Positions 33,464 through 49,140 of a stretch of 64,000 bases of DNA are shown piece after piece. Numbering within the stretch: position 1 is the stretch's first letter; every line of letters begins with the position of its first letter. Both the position numbers and the translations under genes were made by a program. The notes below the pieces were generated by a model. That model was not told the DNA's origin and ran no database searches. It saw only the letters and a program-made list of their open reading frames with translations. Source of the stretch: Sphingobacteriales bacterium (GTDB lineage: Bacteria > Bacteroidota > Bacteroidia > Chitinophagales > Chitinophagaceae); the NCBI GenBank assembly GCA_012270485.1, contig JAAXIF010000028.1, positions 1 to 64,000 of the forward strand, in the 5' to 3' direction.

Positions 33464-34378
33464 ATGTTCTATAGAGATGACCAAGAGACTATCATTAGGG
33501 ACACCGATCAACACGGTGATGCAATATTGACCTATGTCTCTCACGAAGATAAACTAGAGACGTACCGTTATATTAACAGTAGACTTGTGAACACAATCGC
33601 TTCGCAAGATCTTCTTATTAAATATAAAAACGAACAGGTACATATGGTTGCAGAGGCGATGAATCGTGCGCCCATGTATTGTAACTTCCTAACCTCTCGT
33701 GGTTACAACAACATCTTGTTTGTTGGTCATTTCGATATGGCACAATATCATTGGTATCTTGAACGAGATCTTTTAAATCCTAACACTAGGATGTACGACT
33801 CCTTCCCCCCAGAAAGATCTGGTGATACCTATTACCCAGACATCAATATCATCCTTCAGTTCATTCCTATCTTTATGAGACATTGGAACTACACACCCAA
33901 GGTGACTATTGTACGTCCACCCGAACCAAAGTATAAAGGTGTCATCCATCACTTGTACAACCTGTTCAGAGTATCAGATAATATAGTGAACAGTAACAAA
34001 CAGTACAAACACAGAGTAAACCATGAGTTCTATTTGAATGATTGGGATGGTGTTCGATTTGATGCGGTTGTGTTTGCTGGTGTACCTATGCAGAACGAAA
34101 CTCAGTCGTTTCAATTAGAAGAAGTTAAATCTAGGTTTGAACCTTATGTGACAAGTAACTGTGAGTATGTTGATATCTGGAACAACCAAGGTTTGGATAA
34201 CAATATGAGATTCTTCCGTGCAAGACGCCACGTAATGGATACTGCAAAAGATCTTGGTAATGTATTCTCTGCACGTTCGACATGGGATAAGTCAAACCGT
34301 AACCGTGGATACGCAGAAGAATTAAACTTTTTGAAACGTCAGATCAAAGTCTTCTCGACTGATCCAATTAGAGATTAA
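33464..34378 (+). CDS. Hypothetical late protein
   Basis: 304 residues, 3 bases after the previous gene, no recognised family. Middle part holds NNILFVGHFDMAQYHWYLERDLLN and FDAVVFAGVPMQNETQSFQLEEVKSRFEPYV, which look like a Rossmann-type alpha/beta region, but no nucleotide-binding motif is clear. Its stop and the stop of the opposite gene share the bases TTAA. Confidence 0.55.
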   Translation: MFYRDDQETIIRDTDQHGDAILTYVSHEDKLETYRYINSRLVNTIASQDLLIKYKNEQVHMVAEAMNRAPMYCNFLTSRGYNNILFVGHFDMAQYHWYLERDLLNPNTRMYDSFPPERSGDTYYPDINIILQFIPIFMRHWNYTPKVTIVRPPEPKYKGVIHHLYNLFRVSDNIVNSNKQYKHRVNHEFYLNDWDGVRFDAVVFAGVPMQNETQSFQLEEVKSRFEPYVTSNCEYVDIWNNQGLDNNMRFFRARRHVMDTAKDLGNVFSARSTWDKSNRNRGYAEELNFLKRQIKVFSTDPIRD

Positions 34379-35247
34379 GCCCAAGTAACCGCTTTAGGAA
34401 CGTATGAGGCGATCTTCGCCTTGATATCCTTTTCCAGTTTGTCTACTGGAGTAGGTTGTTTACCTTGACGTTTGACATAGAAGTATTTCGCATCATCTAG
34501 GAATGAACCTCCACCCCCAGATACTTTAAGTGAAGAGTCAACACCGACTTTGTTGAATGCGAATACGATATCTCCATCCATGTATCTCTTCAGAGACTTA
34601 CCCATATTCAAAACATCTGCCATGGTCTGTGATGCACCACGGTGAGTATTGACTAGGATCTCGGCAGGAACAGTACGACTACGTGTGAGGTTCTGTGCCT
34701 TTGCAACTTCGATATCATTTACTACCCACACGATGTGGATGTTCTTTTTGTCGTAACCTACGTTAGTCAACATACGAGATAGGTTACCTAACTTCTGAAG
34801 ATCTTTTAGAGTTGTATCGAAAACAAGATTAGGTTTACGATCAGGAGCAGCTGCAAGAATACCTGTCATCAATGCTTTTTGTTTACGAGAATCCAGTTCG
34901 AGAACATTGGCGATTATGTCATGTAATGCACCAACATTCTCTGGATTTTTAAGATCAGAAGCAATTGCTTTGATGTCCATACCAGTCTTTGCTTTCACTC
35001 TCTTTTGAATGAGTTTAGACTTTGAGGCAGCGGTCTTGAGTGCATCAACATCCATGACCTTACCTTCGAGTCCAACAAGATTGGATAGGACAAAACCTTT
35101 ACCCGAACCAGCACCACCCGCCATGATAACTACGTTACCAAATTTAGGATATGCTTGACCACCAAACGTAATGAGTTTCTCTAATAGAATCTCACCATGT
35201 TGTTGAAGTTCTCGTTCTTCGAGATAGTGTTGGTTAAAGGTTTTCAT
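34375..35247 (-). CDS. P-loop NTPase / kinase-like protein
   Basis: 290 residues from the chosen ATG (MKTFNQHYLEERELQQHG). Walker A GGAGSGKG (about residues 44-51) follows KFGNVVIMA; MDVDALK and IHIVWVVNDIEVAKAQNLTRSR add zeta-toxin/adenylate-kinase-like features. T4-like marine phages carry this family near head genes, sometimes annotated as a capsid/scaffold-associated protein (by memory). It has a leaderless-type late promoter, so late expression is expected. Substrate unknown. Confidence 0.7.
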   Translation of the reverse strand: MKTFNQHYLEERELQQHGEILLEKLITFGGQAYPKFGNVVIMAGGAGSGKGFVLSNLVGLEGKVMDVDALKTAASKSKLIQKRVKAKTGMDIKAIASDLKNPENVGALHDIIANVLELDSRKQKALMTGILAAAPDRKPNLVFDTTLKDLQKLGNLSRMLTNVGYDKKNIHIVWVVNDIEVAKAQNLTRSRTVPAEILVNTHRGASQTMADVLNMGKSLKRYMDGDIVFAFNKVGVDSSLKVSGGGGSFLDDAKYFYVKRQGKQPTPVDKLEKDIKAKIASYVPKAVTWA

Positions 35248-35252
35248 ATTGT

Positions 35253-35260
35253 TATTTATA
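35253..35260 (-). promoter_or_regulatory. T4-type late promoter box, 5 bases before an ATG
   Basis: Exact TATAAATA on the minus strand reading TATAAATAacaatATG, the third instance of the 5-base spacing. It also encodes the stop of the small upstream gene (GTA TAA ATA). Confidence 0.7.
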
Positions 35261-35411
35261 CAAACAAGCAAAGAATTGCGAGAAGTACGAACCAAATTAC
35301 TACATTCGGACGGAATTCCCAGACTGTTTTAAAGTCTTCGATTGTACCACGTAAAAAATCAACCACGACTTCTTGCGCTTTATTCCAAAGTGATTTTACT
35401 TTGTCTAACAT
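35256..35411 (-). CDS. Small C-terminally anchored membrane protein (51 aa)
   Basis: MLDKVKSLWNKAQEVVVDFL.. then a C-terminal hydrophobic segment VVIWFVLLAILCLFV. Amphipathic helix plus tail anchor. Located between the 203-residue protein and the P-loop gene; the latter's extended reading frame overlaps it but is not the true start. Function unknown. Confidence 0.55.
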   Translation of the reverse strand: MLDKVKSLWNKAQEVVVDFLRGTIEDFKTVWEFRPNVVIWFVLLAILCLFV

Positions 35412-35415
35412 GAGT

Positions 35416-36027
35416 TTACCCCTTTTTTGATTTTACTATTACCTGTGCATTCTCTGGTAGTTTTATTTTGACCTTATCATGCGAATGGTAAAGATAGAAC
35501 TGGACATGAGAGTACTCTTTGAACATTGCTGGCCAAATCGGTCTCCAGTTATCCGTTATTCTATGTGTATTATTTATAGATCTGTCACTTTCTAGAAGTA
35601 AGTCTGTTGCACTCAACAACGTCATATCGAAAATGTTATCAAACCCATACATGTGTACTTCGGTCGCTTTCATATGACCGCAAGCATAATCAACTGCCAT
35701 GTGACCACAATTAAAGTTGGTCGCATTACCAGCATACTCAGGAACTCTTTGCCAGAACCCCCGAATATTCTGCGAATATTTTAGATAAAAGTTTGGTTGG
35801 ATCTCCATCCATTTACGAGGACGTGTACCAAGTACCCAATCATACATGTCAAGTTTGATCCTACCTTCTTGTAGTGCTAACATCATCTTGAAGTCAACCA
35901 TACAAGTTGCATGTACTTCTGATCTTGGTATCTCAAAGGGAGGCATGTTACATACAAGTAACTTACCTTTAGTCCCTCTCTCGAACAGGAAGTTGTGATC
36001 ACCGTTACCTAAAACATTAACTCTCAT
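35416..36027 (-). CDS. Conserved protein of the glycan cluster, possible glycosyltransferase-like fold
   Basis: 203 residues: MRVNVLGNGDHNFLFERGTKGKLLVCNMPPFEIPRSEVHATCMVDFKMML, then CGHMAVDYACGHMKATEVHMYGFDNIFD. The alternating beta/alpha with an early GNG loop recalls sialyltransferase or MptE-like (DUF115) proteins, but the family is not certain. ATGA overlap with the cytidylyltransferase gene. Contains a TATAAATA inside the coding region at 35571. Confidence 0.5.
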   Translation of the reverse strand: MRVNVLGNGDHNFLFERGTKGKLLVCNMPPFEIPRSEVHATCMVDFKMMLALQEGRIKLDMYDWVLGTRPRKWMEIQPNFYLKYSQNIRGFWQRVPEYAGNATNFNCGHMAVDYACGHMKATEVHMYGFDNIFDMTLLSATDLLLESDRSINNTHRITDNWRPIWPAMFKEYSHVQFYLYHSHDKVKIKLPENAQVIVKSKKG

Positions 36028-36440
36028 TCTGTACAGACTCTTTTTCTCAAATCACTCGAACTAAATCGATGATCTCTTTTATTAAAATATAAATCGATAT
36101 CTCTCTTACGACAGATATCTTTCCCAGTAAAATCTCGATCTCGATACTCTTCACCCAGAATACGTACATCGATATTGTACATATTTAGAATATCCTCAAG
36201 ATCTTCTTCCGTACCATACGGAATGATCTCATCGACATATCCTACTGCCTTGAGTTGTGTGTATCTTTCAACTACTGTCTGGATAGGTTTGTTCTTTCCT
36301 TTCCTACCAGACGGATCGACTTGTAATCCGCAAATCAAATAATCACATTGATCCTTTGCATCACGTAACATAGATACATGACCAGCATGTAACAAGTCGA
36401 ATGCAGAACAAGTAAAACCTACTCTACCTCTTTCCGCCAT
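36024..36440 (-). CDS. Cytidylyltransferase family protein (TagD-like)
   Basis: 138 residues from the chosen ATG; the frame opens 8 codons earlier. GFTCSAFDLLHAGHVSMLRDAKDQCDYLICGL contains the HAGH nucleotide motif (HxGH), followed by KPIQTVVERYTQLKAVGYVDEIIPYG and a final RFSSSDLRKR (the 'ISSxxxR' region). It should transfer a nucleotidyl group, typically CMP, to a phospho-alcohol or sugar. The glycan operon setting fits activated-sugar or lipid-precursor synthesis. Confidence 0.75.
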   Translation of the reverse strand: MAERGRVGFTCSAFDLLHAGHVSMLRDAKDQCDYLICGLQVDPSGRKGKNKPIQTVVERYTQLKAVGYVDEIIPYGTEEDLEDILNMYNIDVRILGEEYRDRDFTGKDICRKRDIDLYFNKRDHRFSSSDLRKRVCTE

Positions 36441-36789
36441 GATATTCTGTCGCATGTCCTTCATTAATTAATAACTCATTAATCACGTACTTACCATTAC
36501 CAGACTCGAACAATATCTGACCAAGGATACGTCCGAACTTACCTTTTGCATCGTACTTAGTAGTACGAAGAATTACCTTCGATCCAGAGGGCGCCATCTT
36601 GTTGACGTACTCTTTGGCGGCCAGACCTCGTGCTTTTTCGGCGAGGTCTCTGGTGCGAGTTTCTGGAGTATTGACGCCAGAAAGACGAACACGCTGATCC
36701 CTAAGAATAATATCAAACCCAAGGTCAATATCAAGATCCACAGTGTCACCGTCAACCCATCGCCCAATTGTTGCCGAATACTCATACAT
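36424..36789 (-). CDS. Staphylococcal-nuclease-like (SNase) protein
   Basis: 121 residues. GRWVDGDTVDLDIDLGFDIILRDQRVRLSGVNTPETRTRDLAEKARG holds the VDGDTxxxDID..VRLxGxxTPE core with catalytic Asp, Arg and Glu, and later GKFGRILGQILFE. No signal peptide, so cytoplasmic. Early expression suggests degradation of host nucleic acid or repair. Overlaps its downstream neighbour in another frame. Confidence 0.82.
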   Translation of the reverse strand: MYEYSATIGRWVDGDTVDLDIDLGFDIILRDQRVRLSGVNTPETRTRDLAEKARGLAAKEYVNKMAPSGSKVILRTTKYDAKGKFGRILGQILFESGNGKYVINELLINEGHATEYHGGKR

Positions 36790-39275: not shown

Positions 39276-40067
39276 TTATGATGGGTTGTTTAATTTCTCA
39301 CGTCCTACGTGTCTTTCAATCTGCGCTCCACCATAAACACATAAGTGGGACTCACCGTAAGGTTCACTCAGAACTTGATACCATCCCCATTCTGCACACT
39401 TCAATTGTTTCTCATTGAATAACCTATTTACCAATTCAGTATCCCAAAGTTTTCTTGGATGGAATATCAATGGATCCATAAGATTGTATGCCCAGTCTTG
39501 GGTTTTTGCGAGTTCATATCTAGTCTTTTCAGATTGACCGTAATCTGGATGATCCTTCTCATTAGGTTTTGGTGGATAGTAGTGTGGTAGTTCCGCAAAG
39601 ACATCTAGATTTTTATGTCTGCCTGGCCTGCAACCGAATCCTATTGCACAGTTGTCTGCGAGAGACCTTTCCATCCAAGGACGAAAGTCTACCTTTCTAG
39701 ACAACCAACAATCGAATCTTGCACGTATGATTAAATCGTAGTTACAATCAGGATCAACCGCATTCAACAGATAATCATGAATCATGATCTGTTTGTGAGC
39801 ATGTTGAGTTTTATCGTGTAATATTCTGTTGTCTTTGTATCCCTTGCATTTACCAGTGGGATATGGTTCGGTGTCTTGTACAGGGTGATACAGAACTTCA
39901 GGTTCTTCAAAAGTATGATCTACAAATTCTCTGTCTTCTTGTTTGAGATCTTCTCTATCCCAACCAGCGGTGAACAGATCTACATCACCAAAGAAAGTTT
40001 TAAAGTTCTCTAGATTCTTTCTCCATTCACCTCTCAGTAATCCACTCGCTAGTACTGCAACCTTCAT
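39276..40067 (-). CDS. Glycan-cluster protein, probable glycosyltransferase-like
   Basis: 263 residues from the ATG coupled by ATGA to the upstream gene (MKVAVLASGLLRGEWRKNLENFKTFFGDVDLFTAGWDRED). NYDLIIRARFDCWL and the C-terminal CVYGGAQIERHVGREKLNN look like a sugar-transfer or polysaccharide-type protein, but no decisive metal motif is seen. Family not identified with certainty. Confidence 0.55.
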   Translation of the reverse strand: MKVAVLASGLLRGEWRKNLENFKTFFGDVDLFTAGWDREDLKQEDREFVDHTFEEPEVLYHPVQDTEPYPTGKCKGYKDNRILHDKTQHAHKQIMIHDYLLNAVDPDCNYDLIIRARFDCWLSRKVDFRPWMERSLADNCAIGFGCRPGRHKNLDVFAELPHYYPPKPNEKDHPDYGQSEKTRYELAKTQDWAYNLMDPLIFHPRKLWDTELVNRLFNEKQLKCAEWGWYQVLSEPYGESHLCVYGGAQIERHVGREKLNNPS

Positions 40068-40732
40068 TGACTTTCCTCGAAGACCTTGACATCTTCGGGA
40101 GTTCCCCAACAGTGCCACTTATCAACCAACAGTGTCTTCACACGATGACCTTGTTCGATGATATCATTATATAAAGGTGCGGTGTAATACTCACCCCTTG
40201 TTTTCTTTTCTAGTTCTAGTGCGTTCTCTATTGTGTCTAAGAATAACCCAGTTCTACTGAACCAATAATGTCCAGTGTTCGCCCAAGGTGAGATAACTTC
40301 TTTCTCTCTTATTTCCAAAACATGACCATCGTCATCTAGTCTACAATAACTATGGGCGGGATTGTCTTTGACTATGGTAAACGTACCCGACACACTATGA
40401 TCCCACCGTGCATGATCGAACTCAATAACAGAATCACACTCAACAAATACAACTGGTTCATCTGGATCACAACGTAACGCACCTATCATACAAGTGACAG
40501 CTGCACCCTCAGTGTATCCATCGATAAACACAAACTCTACATCGAAGTCGAGTTCACGTATATATTTCTCGTGATCCTTTTGCATCACAACTACTGGTTT
40601 ACCGTAACGTAACCAAGGACGGATCGCCCTCTCCCACATAGGAATACCGTCAACCAGAATAAATGGTTTGGGTAAATCATGTGAGTCTTGGAAACGTGAA
40701 CCTCGACCAGCTGCGGTCATTACTACTTGCAT
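40064..40732 (-). CDS. Sugar-1-phosphate nucleotidyltransferase
   Basis: 222 residues. N-terminal VVMTAAGRGSRF..PKPFILVDGIPMWERAI is the GxGxR...PK signature; TEGAAVTCMIGALRC and VFVECDSVIEFD continue the NTP_transferase fold. It makes an activated sugar (e.g. UDP/GDP/CDP-sugar) for the glycosyltransferases next to it. The product is not determined by sequence. Confidence 0.82.
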   Translation of the reverse strand: MQVVMTAAGRGSRFQDSHDLPKPFILVDGIPMWERAIRPWLRYGKPVVVMQKDHEKYIRELDFDVEFVFIDGYTEGAAVTCMIGALRCDPDEPVVFVECDSVIEFDHARWDHSVSGTFTIVKDNPAHSYCRLDDDGHVLEIREKEVISPWANTGHYWFSRTGLFLDTIENALELEKKTRGEYYTAPLYNDIIEQGHRVKTLLVDKWHCWGTPEDVKVFEESQ

Positions 40733-41052
40733 TCTACTACCTGTTTATCATTGGGGGCGGATGGTGTTTTGACAACAACACATTCACTGTATTCTAACCA
40801 TTCACCTTCATTCACTACATACGGTTCAAACACAAAGAAGTCTCCTTCCTTGTAAGTGACACCATTTACAATACAGGAACCACGAGTCAATAGATTGTAT
40901 TCTGTTGCGACACGTTGGAAATGCATATCAGGAAATGGGCCTTTCGACCACTTCATATATGCGACTTCAAAGTCTGTTGTCTTTAGAATAGATTCATCGA
41001 AGTTACCGATAAACCAACCACGGACACAGTCATCTATGTTCTTAACCTTCAT
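40723..41052 (-). CDS. Cupin-fold small protein
   Basis: 109 residues: MHFQRVATEYNLLTRGSCIVNGVTYKEGDFFVFEPYVVNEGEW is a cupin pattern (hairpin 'GxxxxNGxxYxxGDxFxxxP'). It could bind metal and small acids, or isomerise/epimerise a sugar. It overlaps the RuBisCO-like gene by 11 bases and the nucleotidyltransferase by 10, so it is an integral part of that unit. Confidence 0.72.
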   Translation of the reverse strand: MKVKNIDDCVRGWFIGNFDESILKTTDFEVAYMKWSKGPFPDMHFQRVATEYNLLTRGSCIVNGVTYKEGDFFVFEPYVVNEGEWLEYSECVVVKTPSAPNDKQVVECK

Positions 41053-42106
41053 CTAGACTGTCTCGCATTTCCTTGACTTTCTCGTAGATAGAATCTCCTG
41101 TGTGTAACCAACCACCGACATTCGCCAACCAGTCGTTACCAATCATACCACGGATCTCACGTGCGGTATCTGGATTCATACCACATGACAGACACGCAAC
41201 ACGATCATTGTCAATACACATTTGAATCGCTTGCATTGTCTCTTCTTCGGATTCACCTTCTGGATAATAACCACCCAACATACCTACGTGAATAGTATCG
41301 ATACCAGACATGATACCTAACTTGACCAGAACGGGCCAAGAGATAGAGAATCGATTACGAGGATCTGTAAGAATACGAATACCAGATCTCTGATAGTGAG
41401 TTACTAGTTGAGCTGCATGTGAACTAGTGTATGCACCTAACCCAGACCAGAAGTTGATGTGACATCCTTCTGCACCGTGTTCTTTTAGAATGCAAAGATT
41501 GTCCACCAGTTCCAACGGATCAGCATTGATACAATAACAGTAGACACCCTTCCATTCTTTCTCTTGGATCATAGACTGTATTACTGTTGCACGTTGTTCA
41601 AGTGGTAGATAGTTTTGGTTTGCCATGATCTCATCTTCTTTGATGAAGTCTGCGCCCCCATCTATCATCTGTTCAACGATAGTCTTCAACTGTTCCATAG
41701 TCAAACCAGACTTAGGTTTAACGATCGCACCAAAGAGTGGACGATTCTCTGCACCGACTCTTTCCTTAAATGCTTTCATACCTAGAACTGGTTCGTTCAT
41801 GTATGGTAGTCCTTCGATATCGATTACTCGACACTCTTCGACATTACCAATATCTGATTGTCCACCTTGAATGATACACAATAACTGTGAGATATTGGGC
41901 CATACAAATGCATCAAGTGGAAACTTGATCTTTACAATGTTGTCCTCAATCGATTCAACAACAGCCGCAAACTCTTGGATGTTATCTGACATCTCGATCT
42001 CTGATCGAACATTTGGATTACCGATACTTTGACCAACTGCAATCTCATGTGCAGCTTTCTCCATATCGTCACTCTTTACCTCATATGTTACTGTGTAATA
42101 TTCCAT
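41042..42106 (-). CDS. RuBisCO-like protein (form IV-type)
   Basis: 354 residues from the ATG fused to the previous stop (TGATG). FGAIVKPKSGLT (K130, K132) matches the GTIIKPKxGL motif; GGADFIKEDEIM (K156, D158, E159) equals the carbamylated-Lys/metal-binding segment GGLDFTKDDE; INADPLE..; ISWPVLVKLGIMSGIDTIHVGMLGG matches the C-terminal barrel segment. The loop-6 lysine of true RuBisCO is replaced (GGYYPEGE), so CO2 fixation is not expected. Known RuBisCO-like proteins act on sugar phosphates as enolases/isomerases/decarboxylases. Neighbours (cupin, nucleotidyltransferase, glycosyltransferases) suggest sugar chemistry. Read from an early promoter. Confidence 0.85.
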   Translation of the reverse strand: MEYYTVTYEVKSDDMEKAAHEIAVGQSIGNPNVRSEIEMSDNIQEFAAVVESIEDNIVKIKFPLDAFVWPNISQLLCIIQGGQSDIGNVEECRVIDIEGLPYMNEPVLGMKAFKERVGAENRPLFGAIVKPKSGLTMEQLKTIVEQMIDGGADFIKEDEIMANQNYLPLEQRATVIQSMIQEKEWKGVYCYCINADPLELVDNLCILKEHGAEGCHINFWSGLGAYTSSHAAQLVTHYQRSGIRILTDPRNRFSISWPVLVKLGIMSGIDTIHVGMLGGYYPEGESEEETMQAIQMCIDNDRVACLSCGMNPDTAREIRGMIGNDWLANVGGWLHTGDSIYEKVKEMRDSLDEG

Positions 42107-42696
42107 CACAACTCCCAACTAATTGATGGTCGCGTATCACCTTTACCGTTCCAATGAACCTTGCAACCACATTCTTCTATTATGGGGATAATCTCTTTTA
42201 GATTTTTTACCCCTTGTTTTTGTCCGTCAAAACAGAAAACAGATTCGGTTTGTATCTCTGGTGGATAACAAACCCAAGAACCTTCCCTCAATAATCCTTC
42301 GGGTTGATTCTCTAGAACCTCTTCTGCACCATACTTTTTAACTACTTCGAGTACTGCGCCTTCTTGACCGTCCTCTTCTGCCCATTGCGCTTCTTCGTAC
42401 TCTTCAAAGAACTCATCATGATCTACGTCTTCACCGAAGAACTGCATGAACTCTTCATCTAAATCGTACTGACAATCTTGTGAATGATTGAACAATACCT
42501 TACTTAAATCTACTTCCTCATACTCAATCTTGTTACCGTCTTTGTCCTCACGAATCAAATATCCATCTTCATCATACTGCGGATCAAAGTAATCAGGTAC
42601 ATCCATCCACGCACACGACTGACAACAATAATGATTCCAACCTACATACCAACCTTCTTCACGCAACCGTTGTTGCATCTTACGAAAACCGTTCAT
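42106..42696 (-). CDS. Acidic protein, DUF6891-like
   Basis: 196 residues, very acidic middle (DEEFMQFFGEDVDHDEFFEEYEEAQWAEEDGQEG). N-terminal WYVGWNHYCCQSCAWMDVPDYF and C-terminal KVHWNGKGDTRPSISWEL match what I recall of DUF6891 (CCQxCGW ... W.G....RI). Begins the unit right after an early promoter and overlaps the RuBisCO-like gene start. Function unknown. Confidence 0.6.
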   Translation of the reverse strand: MNGFRKMQQRLREEGWYVGWNHYCCQSCAWMDVPDYFDPQYDEDGYLIREDKDGNKIEYEEVDLSKVLFNHSQDCQYDLDEEFMQFFGEDVDHDEFFEEYEEAQWAEEDGQEGAVLEVVKKYGAEEVLENQPEGLLREGSWVCYPPEIQTESVFCFDGQKQGVKNLKEIIPIIEECGCKVHWNGKGDTRPSISWEL

Positions 42697-43792: not shown

Positions 43793-43867
43793 TGGTGCCC
43801 CCGAAAGGAATCGAACCTCTAGTTCCGCGTTCGTAGCGCAGTGTTTTATCCGTTAAACTACGGAGGC
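43793..43867 (-). tRNA. tRNA-Arg (anticodon ACG), CCA encoded
   Basis: Minus strand: acceptor stem GCCTCCG paired with CGGGGGC (all 7 positions, one G-U), D-arm GTTTAACGGATAAAAC, anticodon stem CTGCG/CGCGG around loop CTACGAA, giving anticodon ACG (reads CGU/CGC/CGA after inosine), T-arm AGAGG-TTCGATT-CCTTT, then A and genome-encoded CCA. A phage tRNA with a built-in CCA end, sitting between coding genes. Confidence 0.92.
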
Positions 43868-47670: not shown

Positions 47671-49140
47671 TTAAAATACTTTTACTTTATATTTCTGTTC
47701 AAACAACCTACCATCATGTACCGTATTCACCATAGGTCGCCCCCTAATGTTTAGACTAGTATTTAGTAACATGGGAACTCCTGTTCTATCATAATATTCT
47801 TCAATAACTTTTCGGAATATAGACTCACAATCTTTCTTAACTATCTGTACTCTTGCAGTACCGTCTACGTGAGTTACCGATTTATAATCGTGTTTCGCTT
47901 TACATGTGTATTGCATGTACTCGTTCATTGGGCCTTTGAAATATTCATCTGCATATTCTTCTAGGATCGCAGGCGCGAACGGACGATACTTCTGTCTACG
48001 TTTGATTGTATTGACTGTGTCCTTTACATCATAACGAACATCTGCAATCAAAGATCGATTACCCAACGCACGTGGGCCAAACTCTGCCCTACCGTTCGCC
48101 AGACCGCATACTTTGTGTTCTAAGAGGTGATCGACTACGTCAGATGGGTTTACCTCTCTGTCAATGTTGTATCCTAGATAGGGAGTCCATATAAGTTTAT
48201 CTTTCCCTGTATGTTTCCACCAAGAATGAGCTGCACATCCCAGAGAAGAACCAGCATCTGTGGGTGATATTGCAATATGAACTTCCTCGAATAGTTCTGG
48301 TAGTCTTGAATTCATAACAACATTCTGAGCGCATCCACCAGAGTAAACAAGTTTCTTTCCGTGTTTACGCGCTTCTACCATTATACGCATGATCATTATT
48401 TCTGCGAACTCTTGTACGGTCGCAGCTAACATTGCATGATCTTCTCGTGGACGAGTATTTGCATAATCCTTCAGTTTATTGACCATCGTGCCACGAAGAT
48501 TATGTCCTAGACTTTCTTGACTTGTTAGAGGTATAACTTCGACATCTGGATTAATATCGGGAAGATCCTCGTACCAATCTATCAACCACTGTAGAAGTTC
48601 TGGATCTGGTTTTGCATAAGAACTTAGTCCCATAACAACATACTCGTCTTCGAGTGGTCTTAGTTTTAATGCGCTGGTACAGGCGGTGTAAACCAATCCC
48701 ACAGATTTGGGATAGTTCCATTCTTTGATTATATTGAAATTGTGATCTACTATGATCGCGGTCTGGTGTTCTCCGACACCATCGATCGATACCATGACGG
48801 TATCTTCTTTTGAATCCCACGGTCTGGTAAAGAATGCACCAGCACAATGAGATATGTGATGACCTACAGTAGTTACGTCTTCGGGTGGTGGTGTAAATGA
48901 ATTTCCATCAACTGTACCAGTACTCTTACGAGTTTTTACTTTTAGTCTCCAGTCTTCGTAGAATGTGAGGTGGTCAGAATCTTTTTTGTACTCCCACAGG
49001 TTATCGGGAATGACTGGATCATTCTTCCGTCCACTATATCTTTCTGCATGTGAAGCGAACTCCACCGTACCATCTTCATTGATGATCGATAGAGCTGCAT
49101 CGTGATACCATTCTGAGTATCCTGTAAATCGTTGAGGCAT
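47671..49140 (-). CDS. Carbamoyltransferase (NodU/CmcH/TobZ family)
   Basis: 489 residues. Includes GHHISHCAGAFF (His cluster), VMVSIDGVGEH, KKLVYSGGCAQNVVMN, GRAEFGPRALGNRSLIADVR and the Carbam_trans_C part KYRPFAPAILEEY...TSLNIRGRPMVNT. These enzymes move a carbamoyl group from carbamoyl phosphate via carbamoyl-AMP to a sugar or small-molecule hydroxyl. Here the acceptor may be a glycan or a modified nucleotide (inference). TAATG junction to the HAD gene. Confidence 0.85.
   Translation of the reverse strand: MPQRFTGYSEWYHDAALSIINEDGTVEFASHAERYSGRKNDPVIPDNLWEYKKDSDHLTFYEDWRLKVKTRKSTGTVDGNSFTPPPEDVTTVGHHISHCAGAFFTRPWDSKEDTVMVSIDGVGEHQTAIIVDHNFNIIKEWNYPKSVGLVYTACTSALKLRPLEDEYVVMGLSSYAKPDPELLQWLIDWYEDLPDINPDVEVIPLTSQESLGHNLRGTMVNKLKDYANTRPREDHAMLAATVQEFAEIMIMRIMVEARKHGKKLVYSGGCAQNVVMNSRLPELFEEVHIAISPTDAGSSLGCAAHSWWKHTGKDKLIWTPYLGYNIDREVNPSDVVDHLLEHKVCGLANGRAEFGPRALGNRSLIADVRYDVKDTVNTIKRRQKYRPFAPAILEEYADEYFKGPMNEYMQYTCKAKHDYKSVTHVDGTARVQIVKKDCESIFRKVIEEYYDRTGVPMLLNTSLNIRGRPMVNTVHDGRLFEQKYKVKVF

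Follow-up and report, generated by a model that had tools for sequence, protein, structure and literature searches.

Enzymes with the RuBisCO fold serve in carbon fixation, in the salvage of nucleotides and of methionine, and in the breakdown of sugar acids. In the excerpted text of PMC4958253, the RuBisCO-like protein (RLP) of R. rubrum is a 5-methylthioribulose-1-phosphate isomerase, and its product passes to a cupin enzyme. The GOS-only groups of RuBisCO homologues reported in 2007 are marine metagenomic sequences that, in the part of PMC1821046 available, cluster with no known form, and a form IV-GOS is named in excerpts of a review (PMC10173188). Viral rbcL or "RbcL-like" genes have also been published (PMC12615777, PMC8506154, PMC12607003), and as far as the available text of these surveys goes they are treated as carbon-fixation genes. 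According to the available part of PMC12607003, rbcL also turns up in a set of 100,000 random IMG/VR viruses but has not been widely reported.

Here we describe an RLP encoded on a phage contig. Because its relatives, in the loci whose neighbourhood was analysed, usually sit near a sugar-activating enzyme, we think that the RuBisCO fold is probably reused here to prepare an unusual sugar building block. Among the literature matches listed, which cover titles and the starts of abstracts and leave subscription papers and preprints outside, no link between an RLP and a nucleotidyltransferase was found, either in phages or in cells.

The RLP gene and its operon

The window, that is, the whole stretch of 64,000 nucleotides analysed, is part of the 142,125-base contig C58, which lies within a 4.04-Mb genome bin. 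T4-like genes on C58 encode baseplate hub and wedge, a tail protein, ribonucleotide reductase, tail sheath, portal, terminase, DNA polymerase and helicase. Judged by these structural and replication genes, the RLP-bearing contig is a large tailed T4-like phage, in agreement with the first-pass annotation, which had called the gene phage-borne. A PF00016 search of the same genome bin gave no match besides RLP.

Read as an ORF, the RLP gene starts with ATG. The plus strand across the same interval contains many stops, and the frame is open only on the minus strand. The PF00016 profile (RuBisCO catalytic domain) matches the protein with 85.6 bits (E 4.6e-24; curated cut-off 30.1) and PF02788 (N-terminal domain) with 23.4 bits (curated cut-off 20.7). 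Since both exceed their curated cut-offs, the first-pass assignment, which hung on a significant match to such profiles, holds. An AlphaFold2 model built on 43 sequences reached a mean pLDDT of 92.1 and a pTM of 0.90. Archaeal and Type III RuBisCOs lead its Foldseek list, with archaeal RuBisCO 2d69 at the top (TM 0.86 by query length), and VIA-align places 350 of the 354 residues on RuBisCO with Z 38.8 and rmsd 2.4. With profile scores above the curated cut-offs and a RuBisCO alpha/beta-barrel fold, RLP belongs to the RuBisCO superfamily.

The motifs named from the sequence at the outset are present: KPK at 130-132, KEDE at 156-159, which contains the metal triad K156/D158/E159, and HVG at 273-275. 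The loop-6 lysine is absent, as had been claimed, and Tyr280 occupies its position. Further features are H237-x-Q239, S307-C308-G309 and G331-G332. Comparison with the related locus L009 (dN 0.24, dS 1.88) suggests purifying selection on the gene; against L002, dS is saturated (6.2).

The organisation of the locus is given in Table 1. The translational overlaps between RLP, cupin and sugar-phosphate nucleotidyltransferase (NTP) are as first described, and so is the consensus promoter, a perfect -35/-10 pair on the minus strand. It precedes the 196-aa ORF directly upstream of RLP, and promoter-like sites overall are at chance level in this DNA (32 found against 33.7 expected in shuffles). The 196-aa ORF is absent from the 80 viral RLP relatives searched (the best 80 of 166), since of the 82 sources the two that match are the window and its flanking stretch L001; we therefore place it outside the conserved module. 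The gene cluster of the 264-aa protein recurs within five genes of RLP in 36 of 103 loci, a count that includes the window. Two genes of glycosyltransferase family 25 are close to the operon.

Table 1. Features in and around the RLP operon, in window coordinates.
Feature	Position	Strand	Remarks
RuBisCO-like protein (RLP)	41042..42106	-	354 aa; profile, motif and fold evidence
Cupin	40723..41052	-	109 aa; phrog_24762; overlaps RLP end by 11 nt
Sugar-phosphate nucleotidyltransferase (NTP)	40064..40732	-	222 aa; phrog_3980, PF12804; overlaps cupin by 10 nt
Protein without assigned family	39276..40070	-	264 aa; comes after NTP
ORF without assigned function	42106..42696	-	196 aa; first gene after promoter; 1-nt overlap with RLP start
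Predicted sigma-70-type consensus promoter	42760-42731	-	perfect TTGACA-N18-TATAAT
Second perfect promoter pair	46799-46771	-	TTGACA-N17-TATAAT, TG before -10
Nol/NodU-like carbamoyltransferase	47671-49140	-	phrog_1601, E 3e-79; relatives in 10/82 RLP sources (window counted)
Adenylyltransferase/cytidylyltransferase-like domain	36024-36464	-	second nucleotidyltransferase in cluster; related to HldE domain II (71.2 bits against a cut-off of 181.5)
tRNA-Arg (acg)	43793-43867	-	single tRNA within sugar cluster
P-loop protein	34375-35295	-	Zeta_toxin match PF06414, E 1.1e-8

Spread, residues and phylogeny of the RLP family

Scanning IMG/VR with the single RLP protein revealed relatives encoded on 166 stretches, the best 80 of which were used for the viral loci, and a scan with the family profile found 350 stretches. 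In 84,980 bacterial and archaeal species genomes there were 22 cellular loci, carried among others by SAR11, Crocinitomicaceae, Azospirillum oleiclasticum, three Legionella species, Elusimicrobia, Patescibacteria, Verrucomicrobiia and DPANN archaea. With 22 loci in cellular records the family is not restricted to phages, and some of these loci may represent integrated phages or contaminating phage DNA. Searches of 50,697 phage records with the window RLP (E up to 1e-5) and with the RLP of L086 (E up to 0.01) gave no relative. In a viral structure library, the best 50 of 909 entries, several of them unnamed, included none named RuBisCO (best TMq 0.46). In L041 and L222, which are on the same contig, RLP is split in two ORFs of 155 and 209 aa, either by an assembly frameshift or as a decaying copy.

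We aligned 43 viral members (less than 92% identical, window included) and 22 cellular members with 19 references covering form I, one form III, OiaX and OiaX-like proteins and IV-Photo, the last being the label we assume for the Chlorobium-type sequence. L306 (form I) and L307 (form III) are labelled by PF00016 score and tree position rather than by NCBIfam cut-off. The alignment omits near-copy references (L115, L117, L119, L120, L122, L124, L126 and L129) and the repeat family loci L308-L310, and L331, an Azospirillum family member identical to L094, is not counted among the 19 references. Spinach residue numbers and residue roles, which we take as generally accepted, were carried over by alignment columns.

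The metal-binding set K201-x-D203-E204 with K175, together with K177, is kept in all 65 members. Four positions are replaced in 65/65 members each (E60 by G, T65 by N, N123 by G and H294 by Q), and K334 by Y and G380 by C in the 64/64 members having the column. In all 19 references position 60 is E or D, position 294 is H and position 334 is K or R. Glycine at 123 is not unique to the family, as it also occurs in 7 of the 19 references; K177 is kept, among references, only in four form I/III sequences. All four carboxylase residues considered (K334, E60, N123 and H294) are thus replaced, and the family shows the RuBisCO fold without carboxylase residues, as form IV RLPs do. Taken with the profile scores, these replacements bear out the initial view that the protein is RuBisCO-like and presumably no carboxylase; carboxylase activity is very unlikely. 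Among viral rows R295 (R/K/S) and H327 (H/Q) vary, which suggests that the substrate may not be a bisphosphate and that specificity may differ between subclades.

An unrooted maximum-likelihood tree was made from 53 rows: 17 phage, 21 cellular and 15 reference sequences. It omits 26 viral rows and one cellular fragment (L105), and its references are 14 of the 19 above plus L332, an MtnW-like row on a very long branch (2.14). L332 was the one match, below threshold, of an MtnW search in 249 genomes (368.6 of 513.6 bits). In this tree the 38 family rows form a separate clade, split from the 15 references, form I, form III, IV-Photo and OiaX-like sequences included, with 100/99 support. Support for a branch that sets the phage rows apart is weak (44/91; 48% of bootstrap trees). 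The stem of the window subclade is long, with 1.18 changes per column. We regard the family as a new clade of RLPs in a pathway context that is also new.

Conserved partners and proposed function

ORFs at the loci were called by a longest-ORF script, and the loci themselves supplied the sequences for the NTP and cupin profiles. With these profiles, an NTP lies within four genes of RLP in 38 of 43 viral loci after deduplication, the window among them, in 17 of 22 cellular loci and in 89 of all 103 loci, while the NTP family accounts for none of the 1,132 ORFs more than five genes from RLP. It stands before RLP in 45 loci and after it in 44, indicating that the pair has been rearranged yet kept together. 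No NTP is found within four genes in 5/43 deduplicated viral and 5/22 cellular RLP loci, some loci stopping at contig ends, and no RLP within four genes in 63 of 79 NTP-anchored loci. As each occurs without the other within this distance, the two are not obligatory to each other. A cupin lies within four genes of RLP in 44/103 loci and a short GDPD-like protein in 39/103. In reverse searches RLP was within four genes of 34/52 deduplicated cupins (raw 47/79) and of 13/64 deduplicated NTPs (raw 16/79); the anchor sets, the best 80 of 593 and the best 80 of 374 relatives, share contigs with the RLP set and are not fully independent of it.

NTP residues G9, G11, R13, F14, D100, E143 and K144 are invariant in 31/31 aligned rows and K22 is present in 30/31. 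The protein carries the sugar-phosphate nucleotidyltransferase motif (GxGxRF, K22 and D100), to which we assign the presumed catalytic roles, and its best solved-structure profile match is the nucleoside-diphosphate-sugar pyrophosphorylase 4evw (E 9.2e-36). Profiles, overlaps and conserved linkage together support the operon with a cupin and a sugar nucleotidyltransferase proposed by the first-pass annotation. The cupin of the window has Q at position 46 and V at 79; in 20 of the 22 rows aligned, counting the window, these positions are H and E. Its structure model (pLDDT 91.6) matches generic cupins, and we dropped the attempt to name its function from the model.

The GDPD-like protein, about 150 aa long (for example L086:2622-3083), is a recurrent partner in the module. 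The sequence HR...ExD...HD, which we take to be the GDPD superfamily motif, is present in 26/26, along with further invariant H71, K73, H91 and D94. Its best PDB profile match is a glycerophosphodiester phosphodiesterase (E 1.4e-4); a Pfam scan of two members gave no match, and the gene was not found on C58 among ORFs of at least 80 aa. In the SAR11 loci L089-L093 and L096, RLP is flanked by two nucleotidyltransferase-like genes that differ from each other, and the GDPD-like gene lies upstream. Next to the RLP-NTP pair of Legionella nautarum (L101) stands a divergent LicD gene (PF04991), and L102 and L103 have ORFs of similar length and strand at the same position.

A clue to the substrate comes from NTP fusions. 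The NTP family is fused to DHBP synthase in cyanophage S-SKS1 (PF00926, E 5.4e-65), to RpiB in phage Bellamy, with a cupin next to it (PF02502, E 3.9e-32), and to a HAD domain in cyanophage S-CAM9. In IMG/VR, 46 of 79 NTP-anchored loci have a HAD fusion. A search with the S-SKS1 protein yielded 11 loci, 10 of them with the DHBP synthase fusion, and the RpiB fusion occurs in four loci. Fusions of 361-369 aa (for example L163, L237 and L278) have a short C-terminal domain with DxDGT, which we read as a small HAD from the motif, and often stand beside cupin and GDPD-like genes. DHBP synthase and RpiB both use ribulose 5-phosphate. Sharing of one NTP family with these enzymes narrows the substrate question to pentulose phosphates, and a pentulose phosphate is our most economical guess for RLP. 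No RLP was present in the stretch shown of the 10 DHBP synthase-fused or the 4 RpiB-fused loci (L287 and L288 look like near copies). L073, however, contains RLP, NTP, cupin and, three genes downstream, a stand-alone DHBP synthase. This coexistence speaks against a simple one-for-one swap of RLP by DHBP synthase or RpiB and weakens the claim to "the same kind of partner". After the stand-alone enzyme (L073:10526-11131; PF00926, E 6e-63) come a 323-aa protein without assigned family and one of 123 aa that matches HAD; the DHBP synthase fusions, too, are followed by genes of about these sizes.

We propose that RLP is an enolising pentulose-phosphate enzyme without carboxylation whose product the NTP would activate to a nucleotide-linked sugar, a reading to which we give a probability of about 55%. 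The kept residues presumably serve metal binding, enolisation and the P1 phosphate, and those lost would serve loop-6 closure over CO2 and steering of carboxylation; this pattern favours an enolising isomerase or epimerase. RLP would then be an active RuBisCO-fold enzyme that has lost carboxylation. Mg2+ would be bound via carbamylated K156, D158 and E159, and a ketose phosphate, held in the P1 phosphate site (S307, G309, G331, G332), would be enolised with K130/K132, so that a pentulose phosphate is isomerised or epimerised. The adjacent NTP would activate the product as a nucleotide-linked sugar, the cupin may further isomerise or tailor it, and the glycosyltransferases of the cluster could use the activated sugar to decorate a presumed target. 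Catalysis, metal use, substrate class, reaction type and step order are all what we infer for this pathway. Against the proposal stand the window cupin, with Q at a likely metal ligand and generic cupins as the matches of its model, the loci in which RLP or NTP occurs without the other nearby, and the variation at R295 and H327; nor does an operon neighbourhood by itself define a substrate. The suggestion of the first-pass annotation that RLP feeds an unusual nucleotide sugar gains from the linkage to one NTP family in phages and cells and from the fusion of that family to ribulose-5-phosphate enzymes, while substrate and product stay predictions from sequence. More tentatively, at somewhat below even odds, a new RuBisCO-fold enzyme class might make a novel pentulose- or tetrulose-derived nucleotide sugar from ribulose-type phosphates, with RLP, DHBP synthase, RpiB and HAD as plug-ins for one NTP core that builds phage surface or virion glycans.

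The main rival to an enolising isomerase or epimerase is a chain-shortening reaction, in which RLP would cleave or shorten a sugar acid or ketose phosphate (as a decarboxylase or oxygenase, like OiaC/OiaX) and deliver a C4 phosphate to the NTP, in parallel to DHBP synthase. DHBP synthase makes a C4 phosphate from ribulose 5-phosphate, and the fusion of NTP to this C5-to-C4 enzyme speaks for such a reaction, as does OiaX among the RLP profile matches (91.5 bits). A form IV protein with oxygenase action on ketoribitol bisphosphate is also described in excerpts of PMC10173188. We nevertheless consider chain shortening unlikely, since the family has Q for H294 (65/65; H in 19/19 references), Y for K334 (64/64; K or R in references) and G for E60 (65/65), and falls far short of the 700 bits needed for OiaX membership. 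That the operon is of the MTA-isoprenoid-shunt type, with RLP isomerising 5-methylthioribulose 1-phosphate, the cupin freeing methanethiol and an IspD-like NTP serving the deoxyxylulose pathway, is improbable. In the available text of PMC4958253, a cupin-type sulfurylase acts after the RLP in the R. rubrum pathway, and our NTP gives a weak IspD score (24.0 bits, below the cut-off of 27). However, the best solved-structure matches of NTP are sugar nucleotidyltransferases, the enzymes that it otherwise partners are HAD domains, RpiB and DHBP synthase, less than half of the RLP loci have a nearby cupin, and two glycosyltransferase genes lie close by.

It is a little more improbable still that RLP is non-catalytic or decaying, kept by chance, or an operon scaffold. 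The long stem of the window subclade, the split RLP of L041/L222 and the Q in the cupin could be read in this way, but purifying selection against L009, the invariance of the metal triad and both KPK lysines (65/65) and an NTP linkage kept in SAR11, Legionella and phages argue for an active enzyme. A working RuBisCO that boosts carbon fixation in infection, as an rbcL auxiliary metabolic gene, has next to no probability. Viral rbcL has been reported, and the available text of PMC12615777 describes one from soil as active upon co-expression with rbcS; in the present family, however, none of the loop-6 lysine, E60, N123 and H294 is retained, RLP scores 106.9 bits where form III requires 497, and the genome bin has no other PF00016 match. 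A true carboxylase was rejected on these residues and profile scores.

If our proposal of an enolising enzyme coupled to NTP is true, the RuBisCO fold would have a new use in making nucleotide sugars, and viral members of the family would gain a concrete, testable role unrelated to CO2 fixation. Because surveys count viral rbcL as a carbon-fixation gene, the residue rule of Y in loop 6, Q for H294 and G for E60 would help to separate this family from true carboxylases.

Comparison with known systems

RLP resembles the form IV RLPs in fold (MtnW 2zvi and the MtnW-type 2oem, Z 37.2), and it shares the metal segment and a non-carboxylating character with the MtnW enolase and the R. rubrum isomerase, whose isomerase/enolase chemistry on a ketose phosphate is of the kind proposed here. 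It differs in profile score, PRK09549 giving 69.4 of 409 bits and TIGR03332 52.4 of 513.6, and in context, since the window RLP is linked to a nucleotidyltransferase and not to methionine salvage. The residue comparison and the tree refer to the references named above, among which there is neither an above-threshold MtnW nor the R. rubrum RLP of the DeepYkr class. OiaX and OiaX-like RLPs of apionate pathways share the superfamily, the metal triad and K175, but RLP reaches less than the cut-off of the OiaX profile NF042437 (91.5 of 700 bits). Unlike the window family, these references show no replacement at E/D60, H294 or K334, and S, N or A takes the place of K177; the OiaX-type L301, L302 and L305 adjoin a four-carbon acid sugar kinase instead of an NTP. 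Among the OiaX and OiaX-like references scanned, only L301 itself passes the OiaX cut-off. Form III RuBisCO gives the best NCBIfam profile and the top Foldseek matches, and KPK and K201/D203/E204 are kept; still, TIGR03326 scores 106.9 of 497.45 bits, and E60, N123, H294 and K334 are replaced in RLP. Membership in MtnW, OiaX and form III was rejected on the profile cut-offs, and two further members of the family, L101 and L086, likewise miss each of the cut-offs listed.

By their descriptions the GOS-only and IV-GOS groups are possible counterparts of the RLP family, and a phage or module context is not part of those descriptions in the available text. The cyanophage modules of S-SKS1, Bellamy and S-CAM9 contain the same NTP family, with annotated glycosyltransferases near it in all three, and Bellamy also shares the cupin family. 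In these modules the NTP is fused to DHBP synthase (S-SKS1), RpiB (Bellamy) or HAD (S-CAM9), and the two RLP queries found no RLP in the phage records.
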